NCBI GenBank assembly: GCA_022414725.1
Contig: CM039463.1
Location: forward strand, 76,513,117 to 76,577,116
Source: Microglena sp. YARC
Taxonomy: Eukaryota > Chlorophyta > Chlorophyceae > Chlamydomonadales > Chlamydomonadaceae
DNA length: 64,000 bases
Direction: 5' to 3'
The notes below the pieces were generated by a model, which had not been told where the DNA came from, did no database searches, and worked only from the letters and a program-made list of their open reading frames with translations. Below, piece by piece: positions 5,085 through 63,900 of the stretch. Made by a program: the position numbers and the translations under genes. How positions within the stretch are numbered: position 1 is the stretch's first letter; every line of letters begins with the position of its first letter.

Positions 5085-5326
5085 GCGAGAGGTTGTATGA
5101 GCTTGCTACCATGGAGTTCGCCCTCCCTGAGGACATCGAGCGCATGCGCCACAGCAAGAAAAGGGACCTGGGTCTGTCAGAACGACTGGAGCTGTTGGAT
5201 GAGGCCAGCTGTACGGTGAACAGCATTGAGCTGAGCTGGCGCCCCCCTACGAAGAATGCTGACCGCATTGAACGGTACAAGTTGATGATCGCAACCAGCA
5301 CGGGAGTGGTGAAGGATGCATACCAG
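5085..5326 (+). CDS. FN3 gene, penultimate exon
   Basis: The acceptor CTTCCAG precedes it after a long CA/CCCA tract; the donor is CAG|GTTAGT. 242 bases, entering in phase 1 and leaving in phase 0. It encodes a helical segment ([18 protein letters not shown]), then the first half of the FN3 fold. Residues read smoothly with no stop. Confidence 0.85.
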
Positions 5327-8288
5327 GTTAGTTGTTTTGGTCCTGCACCTACCCCACCACCACCACCACCTTCACTCACACACAAACACACACACGTAGA
5401 CATAATCACACATGCACCAATACCCCTCACACACTCACCTCTTCCCTCAGCACGACTAGCTCTTCCCGGTCCCCCCCCCCCCCCCCCCCCCCCCCCCTGT
5501 GGTGAAGGATGCATACCAAGTTATTTGTTTATAAAAATGTTCGTTTTTTAAAGCTGTTTTTATAGCAGGCTTTGTTTTTGAAAGCAGTTCTTATCGCAAC
5601 CAGCGCAGGAGAGGTGAAGGATGCGTGCCAGGTCAGTTGTTTATAGCAGTCTTTGTTTTGAAATATTTCACCACTCACATTTCTCAGCCTCACCCTCACC
5701 CTCACCCTCACCAACACACTGACCCTCACCCCTACCCTCACCCTGACCCTCACCCTCATCCTCATCCTCACCCCCCCCCCCCCCCCCCCTCACCCTCACC
5801 CTCACCCTCACCCTCACCCCTCCCCTCGACCAAGATACCCCACTCAAAAATACCCCTCACAGACTCACCTCTTCTCTCAGCACGACTTGCTCCTCCTGCC
5901 CCTCCCCCCCCCCCCCCCCCCTGTGGTGAAGGATGAGTACCAGGTCAGTTGTTTTGGTTCCTACACCTCCCCCACCTGGTCCCAACCACCACCACCACCA
6001 CCACCACCACCATCACTGTGGTAAAGGATGAGTACCAGGTCAGTTGTTTTGGTCCTACACCTCCCCCACCTGGTCCCCACCACCACCACCACCACCATCA
6101 CTGTGGTAAAGGATGAGTACCAGGTCAGCTGTTTTGATCCTACACCTGTCCCACCTGGTCCCCCCCCCCCCCCCCCCCCACACACACACACACACACCAC
6201 CACCACTGTGGTGAAGGACGCGTACCAGGCTAGTTGTTTATAGCAGGCTTTGTTTTGAAATATGGCCAAGATGCCTTCACTGAAAAATATGCATTGAGCG
6301 GTACAAGTTGGTGATCGCAACCAGCACATGAGTGGTGAAGGACGCATACCATGTTAGTTGTTTTGGTCCTACACCTCCCCCACCTGGTCCCCCCCTCACA
6401 CCACCACCACCACCACCACTGTGGTGAAGGATGAGTATCAGGTCAGTTCTTTATAGCAGGCTTCGTTTTTAAATATGGCCAAGATAGCACCACTCAAAAA
6501 TACCCCTCACAGACTCACCTCTTCTCTCAGCACGACTTGCTCCTCCTGGTCCCCCCCCCCCACCACCACCACCACTGTGGTGATGGATGCGTTCCAGGCT
6601 ACTTGTTTATAGCAGGCTTTGTTTTGAAATATGGCCAAGATGCCCCCACTCAAAAATGTGCATTGAGCGGTACAAGTTGGTGATCGCAACCAGCAGAGGA
6701 GTGGTGAAGGACGCATACCATGTTAGTTGTTTTGGTCCTCACCTCCCCCACCTGGTCCCCACCCACCCACCCACACCCACACACAAACCACCACCACCTC
6801 TGTGGTGAAGGACGCTTACCAGGCTAGTTGTTTATAGCAGGCTTCGTTTTGAAATATGGCCAAGATGCTCCCACTCAAAAATGCATACCAGGCAAGCTGC
6901 TGCAGGGTTTGTTTTTGAAAGCAGTTTATTTTGCCACCAGCACAGGAGTGGTTAAGGACGCAGTGCCAGGGTGGATGGTGGTTTTTGTTTAGTCGTGGAA
7001 GGATTTTCGCCCCAGGAGGTGGGTCTCCCTACGCTAACCAGCGACACCGAGGATTCAGTTTGAAGGGTGTTGCCACTCCTACAAAAGAGTAGACGCACGT
7101 AGGGTCAGTGGGAGATACCGACCCTCTACCAAACGAGGTAGAGTGGGGAAGGACACTTACAGGTTAGCTGCAGCAAGGCTGTTTTTTAAAGCTGTTTTTG
7201 AAAGCAGTTCTTATTGCAACCAGCACAGGAGTGGTGAAGGATACTTACCAGGTTAGTTGTTTATAACAGATTTTGTGTTTTAAAGCAGTTTTTATAGTAG
7301 GGTTTGTTTTCGAAAGCAGTTTTGTGTTTGAAAGCAGTTTTTGAAATCATTTCTTAAAGCAGGGTTTGTTTTTGAAAGCAGTTTTCGTAGTAGGGTTTGT
7401 TTTTGAAAGCAGTTTTGTGTTTGAAAGCAGTTTTTGAAAGCAGTTTTTATAGCAGGGTTTGTTTTGTAGCAGTTTTATTTTTTTAAGCAGGGTTTTTGAG
7501 AGCACATTTTTAGATCATCTTTTTAACAGCAGTTTTTTCATAGGAAAGGAACCAGTGTCTTCTCCTAGCACCATTGTGCTCCTAGCAGCCTTCAGGGTCC
7601 TCCTAGCAGCTTTTTGCCCCCCCCCCCCCCCCCCAAAAAAAAACAAAAGCAGCCCCAAAAAAGCTGTAACATAGCACCCCCAATGCACCAAGTTATGTCA
7701 TATATGGGGGGACAGCTATGTTATATGATATAAGTGAATAAATAATATTACATAATATTAGTCGGACGAGCCGTCTCACCAGAATTTTAAATTTATTTGA
7801 AAAACTAATATTTTTGTGACACTATAATGATATTAGTTTTTCAAACACTAATTTAAGTTGCCGTTCCCTAGTCATATAGCTCTTGTCATCCAGCACTAGT
7901 GTGCTACTAGCCCCCCCCCCCCACACACACACACACACACACACACACACACACACACACGCACACACACACAACACACACACAAAAGTAGCCTGAAAAG
8001 GCTCTAACGTAACTCCCACTCCCACTCCCTCCCACACACTCACACTCCCACACACTCACACCCCCACTTCCACCCACTCCCACTCCCACCCACTTCCACC
8101 CACTCCCACTCCCTCCCACTCCCACCCACCCCACTCCCTCCACCCACTCCCACTCACAGGGCAAGGACCAGCGTTTCCGTGTCATCGGACTGAAGCCCAA
8201 CACAGAGTACATCCTGTGTGTGAAGGCCATCTACGATGATGGCTCCTTCTTGTGGAGTGAGTCTAAAGCCTACATGACCAAGATGTGA
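5085..8288 (+). CDS. Fibronectin type III domain protein, C-terminal two exons
   Basis: Two exons (5085-5326 and 8160-8288) join in phase 0 and encode the last 120 or so residues. The first contains the early strands of an FN3 domain (SIELSWRPP with the core Trp; [10 protein letters not shown] with the strand C Tyr). The second contains the classic closing half ([21 protein letters not shown], then WSE), ends YMTKM and stops with TGA. The first exon starts in phase 1, so upstream exons exist; I could not find them in the 3 kb to the left. FN3 domains bind proteins; nothing here shows the partner or location. The intron is 2.8 kb and mostly consists of copies of its own 5' splice junction. Confidence 0.8.
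5327..7260 (+). repeat. Exon-edge echo array: about 15 copies of the exon 3' end plus donor
   Basis: The last 20-60 bases of the exon at 5085-5326 (GCAACCAGCACAGGAGTGGT then GAAGGATGCRTACCAG|GTTAGTTG) recur at about 5505, 5600, 5925, 6020, 6110, 6208, 6340, 6425, 6580, 6690, 6805, 6890, 6945, 7155 and 7225. Many retain a usable CAG|GTYAGT donor; others have lost it (CATGTTAG, CAAGTTAT). Between copies are C-runs, (CAC)n, CCCTCA repeats and TATAGCAGGCTTTGTTTTGAA, which duplicates with them. The longest copies also include GAGCGGTACAAGTTGGTGAT. Confidence 0.85.
7000..7130 (+). repeat. Dispersed repeat R2, copy 1
   Basis: The segment CCCAGGAGGTGGGTCTCC...ACGCTAAC...GCGACACCGAGGATTCAGTT recurs at 10825-10905 and 12815-12910. 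GGATTCAGTTCGAATGG-type sequence resembles a Pol III B box, so the family may be another SINE; this is uncertain. Confidence 0.55.
7260..7560. repeat. T-rich minisatellite (GTTTTTGAAAGCAGTTTTTATAGCAGGG)
   Basis: Irregular units of 20-40 bp built from AAGCAGTTTTT and AGCAGGGTTTG, apparently derived from the TATAGCAGGCTTTG spacer of the adjacent echo array. From 7560 to 7910 there is a C-run (7617-7634) and AT-rich sequence with no gene seen. Confidence 0.7.
7911..8155. repeat. (CA)n then CCCACTCC repeats before the last FN3-gene exon
   Basis: C-run and (CA)n at 7911-7985, then CCCACTCC/CACTCCCTC units to the acceptor TCACAG at 8154-8159. It acts as a very long pyrimidine/CA tract before the exon. 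Confidence 0.85.
8160..8288 (+). CDS. FN3 gene, last exon
   Basis: 129 bases in phase 0, encoding 42 residues and TGA. The motif L-K-P-N-T-E-Y followed by V-K-A and W-S-E is diagnostic of FN3 strands E to G. The acceptor is TCACAG|GGC. Confidence 0.85.
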   Translation, partial: GKDQRFRVIGLKPNTEYILCVKAIYDDGSFLWSESKAYMTKM

Positions 8289-8347
8289 TGCGCTTGCCGT
8301 CACAGTGGATGAAGGCCATCTATGATGAGTCCTTCTCGTGTAGTATA

Positions 8348-63600: not shown

Positions 63601-63607
63601 GTGGGTG

Positions 63608-63900
63608 TGAAGAGTGTGATGAGTGTGACAGTGGATCAATCTTGATGGTGGGTGTGATGAGTGTGACAGTGGATCAATCTTGACGGTGGGTGTGATGAGT
63701 GTGACAGTGGATCAATCTTGACGGTGGGTGTGATGAGTGTGATGAGTGTGACAGTGGATCAATCTTGACGGTGGGTGTGATGAGTGTGATGAGTGTGACA
63801 GTGGATCCATATTGACGGTGGGTGTGATGAGTGTGACAGTGGATCAATCTTGACGGTGGGTGTGATGAGTGGTGTGACAGTCGATCCATAATGGCGGTGG
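63608..63900 (+). repeat. Exon-edge echo array: 7 copies of NDC1 exon D 3' end plus donor
   Basis: GACAGTGGATCAATCTTGAC then G|GTGGGTGTGATGAGTGT recurs near 63626, 63666, 63704, 63752, 63798, 63836 and 63878, every 36-48 bp. Five keep the identical GTGGGTG donor context. The remaining 63900-64000 holds nothing recognisable. Confidence 0.93.

Follow-up and report, generated by a model that had tools for sequence, protein, structure and literature searches.

Tandem copies of exon edges with their splice sites in the introns of Microglena sp. YARC

Splice Junction Copies in the Analysed Window

The stretch of DNA analysed here, referred to below as the window (64,000 nucleotides, C2:76513117-76577116, where C2 is contig CM039463.1), belongs to the 568,105,699-base, 2,390-contig genome assembly of the green alga Microglena sp. 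YARC. Parts of four genes were recognised in it, namely an FN3-like gene, a GT31-like gene, TBCA and the gene of the type II NADH dehydrogenase NDC1. As was found by a BLAST search of the window against itself, by Tandem Repeats Finder (TRF) and by reading, exons in the window are adjoined by local direct copies. Many of these copies comprise the edge of an exon together with its splice site, and such copies of exon edges are called echoes below.

The junctions of the window were placed by open reading frame and splice consensus and, in NDC1, also by homologues. A copy was regarded as spanning a junction if it contained at least 12 exon and at least 5 intron nucleotides on the two sides of the splice site. 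In the FN3-like, GT31-like and NDC1 genes, 13 junctions were placed, and 11 of them have at least one spanning copy, giving 69 copies altogether (Table 1); the spanning-copy count in the window was zero for acceptors 2 and 3 of NDC1. The copies adjoin the parent exon and extend outward into the intron. The first-pass annotation of the window had described multi-copy tandem arrays of splice junctions, adjoining their parent exons, at many junctions and in all four genes. Both the arrays and their position were confirmed, but not for every gene. The TBCA exon has no spanning copies at either edge, and no exon sequence was found in the TG/CA-rich array above its acceptor; therefore, three of the four named genes carry the copies.

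Table 1. Exons of the window and the junction copies beside them. The slash marks the splice site; spanning copies are counted as defined in the text.
Feature	Positions	Strand	Spanning copies	Evidence
Intron end, acceptor and FN3-like exon start, copied upstream of the real acceptor	4729..4819	+	1	84% to 5038-5128, self-BLAST
FN3-like exon, acceptor CCAG/GCGAGAGG, donor CCAG/GTTAGT	5085..5326	+		Pfam fn3 E 0.011, under the curated cut-off
Intronic copies of the FN3-like exon end with donor	5499..7262	+	12	self-BLAST
GT31-like acceptor and exon-start array, units TGTATAG/GTGGCTGAT..	14819..16620	+	23	TRF
GT31-like exon, first copy is the real coding exon	16636..17067	+		Pfam Galactosyl_T E 4.5e-6
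GT31-like exon-end copies, 22/48-bp intronic array in between	17151..18215	+	2 among 4 matches	TRF, self-BLAST
Two 195-bp units, acceptor and ~100 nucleotides of the last GT31-like exon	20139..20531	+	2	TRF period 195
Last GT31-like exon, the copy running to the stop codon	20566..20940	+		no Pfam match
TBCA exon without exon-edge copies	31429..31546	-	0	Pfam TBCA E 1.1e-6, 29.4 bits, just below the cut-off of 30.3
Acceptor and NDC1 exon-start copy	54567..54740	+	1	91% to 54873-55046
NDC1 exon (type II NADH dehydrogenase)	54894..55267	+		reading, homologues
Copy of the end of NDC1 exon 54894..55267	55327..55407	+	1	87% to 55220-55302
Second NDC1 exon read, acceptor without spanning copy	56194..56265	+		reading
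Decayed copies of the end of the second NDC1 exon and GTAAGT	56341..57690	+	8	TRF periods 131 and 120
Third NDC1 exon read, acceptor without copy	61163..61493	+		reading
Two 186-bp copies of the end of the third NDC1 exon and donor	61569..61888	+	2	TRF period 186
Acceptor and start of the fourth NDC1 exon read, array	62361..63465	+	10	self-BLAST, TRF
Fourth NDC1 exon read	63476..63600	+		reading
Copies of the end of the fourth NDC1 exon and donor	63614..63909	+	7	TRF

The assignment of the FN3-like gene to FN3, suggested by a Pfam match, is weak. The best homologue of NDC1 shows 56% identity over four exons, and Chlamydomonas eustigma is among the top two. The NDC1 intron that holds the donor echoes of the second exon read also contains three tandem copies of a ~980-bp unit (57933-60896), 94-98% identical. 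Other repeats of the window include an 11-kb array between TBCA and NDC1 (42094-53241), consisting of ~1,022 copies of the 11-bp unit TAACCCTGCAC with 89% matches, a unit which is telomere-like by eye, and a 51-bp satellite (39291-40449, 22.8 copies, 98% matches). A 244-amino-acid open frame on the minus strand (501-1235) contains a terminal CCHC zinc knuckle and appears gag-like by eye.

Occurrence of Echoes in Other Genes

Genes of three families picked for conservation, chaperonin CCT, HSP70 and kinesin, were located by a profile search of the whole genome, and their junctions were defined by consecutive profile matches and splice consensus (GT-AG, one GC-AG). The sample comprised 18 genes (10 CCT, 6 HSP70 and 2 kinesin) with 133 junctions of one genome, and housekeeping genes weigh heavily in it. 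A 60-nucleotide exonic query from each junction was compared with up to 1,500 nucleotides of the adjacent intron, and matches with a score of at least 28 were accepted. The exon edge is copied into the adjacent intron at 55 of the 133 junctions, so that about four in ten sampled splice junctions adjoin near-copies of themselves; in the reverse complement of the same introns, none of the 133 edges reached this score, the maximum being 25. Exon-edge copies are genome-wide in the sample, and the excess near other exons, for which the first-pass annotation had proposed a check, is present. Two genes (L045m and L046) had been fetched partly because duplicated profile rows had already been seen in them; without these genes, echoes are found at 45/114 junctions. 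When spanning copies are counted with the window included, 197 of them occur at 56 of 136 junctions, including at least one set, the nine copies at the donor 4929 of L051, that fails the exon-only test.

The share of junctions with echoes varies among the genes, from 4 of 4 to none of the 34 junctions of five genes (L050, L055, L056, L057 and L058), three of which are HSP70 genes. The frequency rises with the median intron length (Spearman 0.56, p 0.015, 18 genes). Among the first 16 genes, echoes are present at 35 of 60 junctions with introns of at least 1,000 nucleotides and at 12 of 63 junctions with shorter ones, the available flank being taken as the length if one intron end was undetermined. 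The gene L056 is echo-free although its median intron is 2,173 nucleotides long. Arrays with a period of at least 20 account for 2-57% of the intron sequence, gene by gene. In two of the CCT genes, apparent one-base frame shifts were noticed by eye in conserved exons (L043, ~6562-6620; L047, ~6250-6290), which are perhaps assembly errors or signs of pseudogenes.

Anatomy, Direction and Decay of the Copies

Three junctions read base by base proved to be plain tandem duplications across the splice junction. In L048, a 97-bp unit, and in L054, a 160-bp unit, running from intron through the acceptor into exon, is repeated head to tail; in L044, the 197-bp tandem unit runs from exon through the donor into intron. 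The copied units contain the intron and exon sequence flanking one splice site and lie head to tail on the same strand. A non-tandem templated insertion, suggested by spacers between two-copy repeats, was rejected, since the base-level reading revealed that BLAST had split tandem units at intronic differences.

The direction of copying was assessed with protein-profile tables, which included 113 of 128 kinesin rows, 20 of 64 CCT rows and 22 of 75 HSP70 rows, the latter two sets being rows with close neighbours; the 15 excluded kinesin rows are mostly long, weak and near-full-domain. Twelve of the 23 overlapping pairs are parent-copy pairs with one common end, and in 12/12 of these the copies of exon ends lie downstream and those of exon starts upstream. 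Seven other overlaps, three copy-copy pairs and one pair sharing both ends (C1:30457901, copy downstream) were set aside. The echoes reach 17 to 180 nucleotides into the exon (median 62, 51 junctions), and this spread shows no fixed breakpoint.

The copies mostly differ from the parent at 5-25% of positions, with indels in addition. The decay with distance described in the first-pass annotation was only weakly borne out. Among the 18 junctions with at least four spanning copies, identity drops with distance at 13; five of the 18 belong to the window, and their correlations of identity with distance range from -0.45 to +0.09. Of 108 donor copies, 81 (0.75) still have the GT, compared with 0.74 for the neighbouring exonic dinucleotides, and the column profiles of the copies have no peak at the donor. 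Donor copies look near-neutral, decaying like their surroundings.

Junctions Compared with Intron Interiors

Local copies are also common away from the junctions. For complex 60-mers (score at least 40, within 1 kb, entropy at least 4.8), the local-copy rate was 0.35-0.46 in introns, depending on the distance class, 0.36 across junctions, 0.28 at the exon edge, 0.20 at 20-60 nucleotides inside the exon and 0.05 in the exon interior. Therefore, junctions do not stand above the intron interior, and the rate declines into the exon over approximately one unit length, as would be expected for units of ~100 bp combined with purging in exons. These rates vary with the complexity filter, from 0.44-0.63 in introns and 0.41 at junctions in the unfiltered data to 0.39-0.49 and 0.24, respectively, under a stricter filter (5.1). 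In the raw interior rates, each member of an array is counted separately, and the arrays were therefore also collapsed; the collapsed interior rate is biased in the opposite direction, hence the calibration by simulations.

Arrays without exon sequence, which the first-pass annotation had left unweighed, are common. TRF reported 67 arrays, of which 53 contain no exon sequence and 14 overlap an exon edge, with 10.3 expected if they were placed uniformly. Since TRF truncates the last unit, it misses exon-anchored arrays, and near-tandem clustering was preferred.

In the simulations, introns were subject to deletion and to tandem duplication placed uniformly, duplications falling inside exons were purged, and exons had a lower substitution rate; the parameters came from a small grid and were chosen by eye, and simulated introns were not paired in length with individual real ones. 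One uniform setting gave interior rates of 0.591/0.490/0.334/0.212 at four thresholds, near the real unfiltered values of 0.503/0.429/0.329/0.228. The same setting predicts rates of 0.408/0.338/0.275/0.179 at exon edges, where the real rates are 0.398/0.367/0.276/0.194, that is, no excess. Depending on the control, the excess of junctions over the position-blind null ranges from none to approximately twofold.

Origin of the Arrays

Taken together, the simulations and the array counts indicate that position-blind duplication explains most echoes. Probably, small tandem duplications, with units mostly of ~30-230 bp, arise throughout the introns of this alga irrespective of position and lengthen them, and the arrays stem from those that happen to straddle a junction. 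A duplication within an exon would be purged and one within an intron tolerated, and a duplication crossing a donor or acceptor would be tolerated provided that its outer copy lies in the intron and that splicing continues at the copy beside the coding body. The sites still used would then be the first donor and the last acceptor, and an exon-edge echo with its splice site would remain as a consequence of the tolerated duplication. That the inner splice sites are those used is suggested by the reading frame and the conserved protein profile. The founder step may have been, for example, break repair with fill-in of staggered ends followed by end joining; the arrays may have grown in later rounds by slippage or unequal exchange, and the echoes would then decay roughly neutrally.

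A number of observations weigh against this explanation. Near-tandem clustering yielded 58 clusters in 61 introns; a minority of 21 lacks exon sequence, and 37 overlap an exon edge, with 22.1 expected. The observed-to-expected ratio of 1.68 (1.61 without L045m and L046, 30 of 47 clusters with 18.7 expected) exceeds all 16 simulated replicates with uniform placement, which gave 0.72-1.46. Exon edges are copied 1.95-2.16 times as often as the collapsed intron control, with lower 95% bounds of 1.08-1.41 in a gene bootstrap, and the first and last 60 nucleotides of the intron, which are free of coding constraint, show a 1.88- to 2.12-fold excess over the collapsed interior at loose thresholds. The setting that best fits the filtered interior (0.38/0.21/0.14, real values 0.374/0.230/0.144) predicts 0.30/0.18/0.10 at exon edges, and the real 0.398/0.276/0.194 constitute a 1.3- to 1.9-fold excess; under most other settings, the excess is ~2- to 5-fold. 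The collapsed interior rate at score 28 is 0.19-0.25 in the real introns and 0.31 and 0.59 in two fitted settings. It was reproduced by no setting; therefore, the model is incomplete, and confidence in position-blind duplication is slightly lowered. In addition, two kinesin genes (L059 and L060), picked among those without echoes at the profile level, have echoes at 8 of 10 junctions, compared with 47/123 in the CCT and HSP70 set, and acceptor copies may retain some AG, which is intact in 76/89 copies (0.85) against 0.70 for the neighbours, the copies within an array being non-independent.

The array ratio, the approximately twofold excess of exon edges over the collapsed control and the kinesin junctions, as well as the 11 of 13 junctions of the window, would fit a mechanism that directs duplication to exon borders, such as transcription-coupled R-loops or breaks linked to splicing. 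Nevertheless, such targeting is rather unlikely, considering that the raw duplication rates of intron interiors are similar, that 53 of the 67 TRF arrays (though only 21 of the 58 clusters) lack exon sequence, and that the reach of the echoes has no fixed breakpoint. The clock free of coding constraint, the intron's own edge, shrinks the excess to 1.10-1.11 at strict thresholds, with wide intervals, and one uniform setting requires no excess at all. The focus on exon borders asserted in the first-pass annotation is thus not supported as stated, although an excess of up to approximately twofold is possible. It is unlikely, too, that a link to transcription or splicing makes exon borders true hotspots of small tandem duplication, with introns growing outward from their splice sites as exon edges are copied again and again, and with the ladders of near-identical donors and acceptors silenced by an innermost-site rule of exon definition.

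Selective retention of the echoes for a function, be it that of a decoy, an alternative splice site or a pseudo-exon, could account for the splice sites kept in the copies, in particular the acceptors, and some units of the GT31-like gene hold, by eye, both an acceptor-like and a donor site. It is very unlikely, given that the donor GT decays at the pace of the exonic dinucleotides beside it without a peak in the column profiles, and that five of the 18 genes are echo-free. An assembly artefact, that is, collapsed or expanded repeats or haplotype duplicates, is most improbable: the copies mostly diverge from the parent and carry indels, and the same arrangement recurs across four large contigs and the three sampled families. 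Gain of introns via a duplicated AGGT-bearing exon segment, or by introner insertion, would likewise involve tandem duplication in the former case, but the exon is unbroken here, the conserved profiles and reading frame join across the intron, and the copies stand beside their own exon edge. Moreover, when positions 5085-6085 were searched against the genome, a CTCACC-rich stretch was the only dispersed part among the listed matches (~150 of 212), and the listed copies of exon sequence were local. Such intron gain therefore has hardly any likelihood as the source of the arrays.

The arrays constitute a datable record of intron lengthening by duplications that span the borders of the introns themselves; this route differs from both transposon insertion and AGGT intron gain. 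They also provide a natural experiment on splice-site choice, in which one transcript presents a given donor or acceptor several times, each time in its exonic surroundings, and presumably only the innermost is used. For annotation, the arrays are a warning, since the repeated matches of profile searches here include exon pieces that do not represent exons.

Comparison with Known Systems

In whole-exon tandem duplication, exon sequence is copied beside its parent; here, the duplicated part is an exon edge, and what results is no intact coding exon. In the AGGT model, as presented in an excerpt of PMC4974935, an intron arises out of duplicated exon sequence. By contrast, the copy of an exon end in Microglena follows its own donor and the copy of an exon start precedes its own acceptor, which means that existing introns lengthen; among the copies studied, no new intron built from duplicated exon sequence was found. 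The distinction from AGGT intron gain drawn in the first-pass annotation thus stands.

Small tandem duplications of local sequence, similar to those described here, are known as products of break repair by CST-guided Pol alpha-primase fill-in and end joining (PMC8355091, excerpt). This repair was shown in cells other than those of this alga, and alone it makes no multi-copy arrays. In volvocine algae, tandem repeats with monomers longer than 10 bp add to genome size, and long introns are typical (PMC8226300, PMC11228838); the excerpts of these accounts of satellites and long introns make no mention of units with exon edges and splice sites. A description of multi-copy exon-edge arrays was not found in the titles and abstract openings of mainly open-licence literature.

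The closest known case, as far as the excerpt of PMC4974935 goes, is the RdRp gene of potato, in which one tandem duplication over an intron-exon boundary made a new intron with a donor derived from exon sequence. There, as in Microglena, the duplication spans the intron-exon junction and copies splicing signals together with part of the exon. Whereas that was a single event, the introns of Microglena contain arrays with as many as 23 spanning copies, at tens of junctions and with no new intron noticed, and in this respect the exon-edge arrays are unusual in scale.

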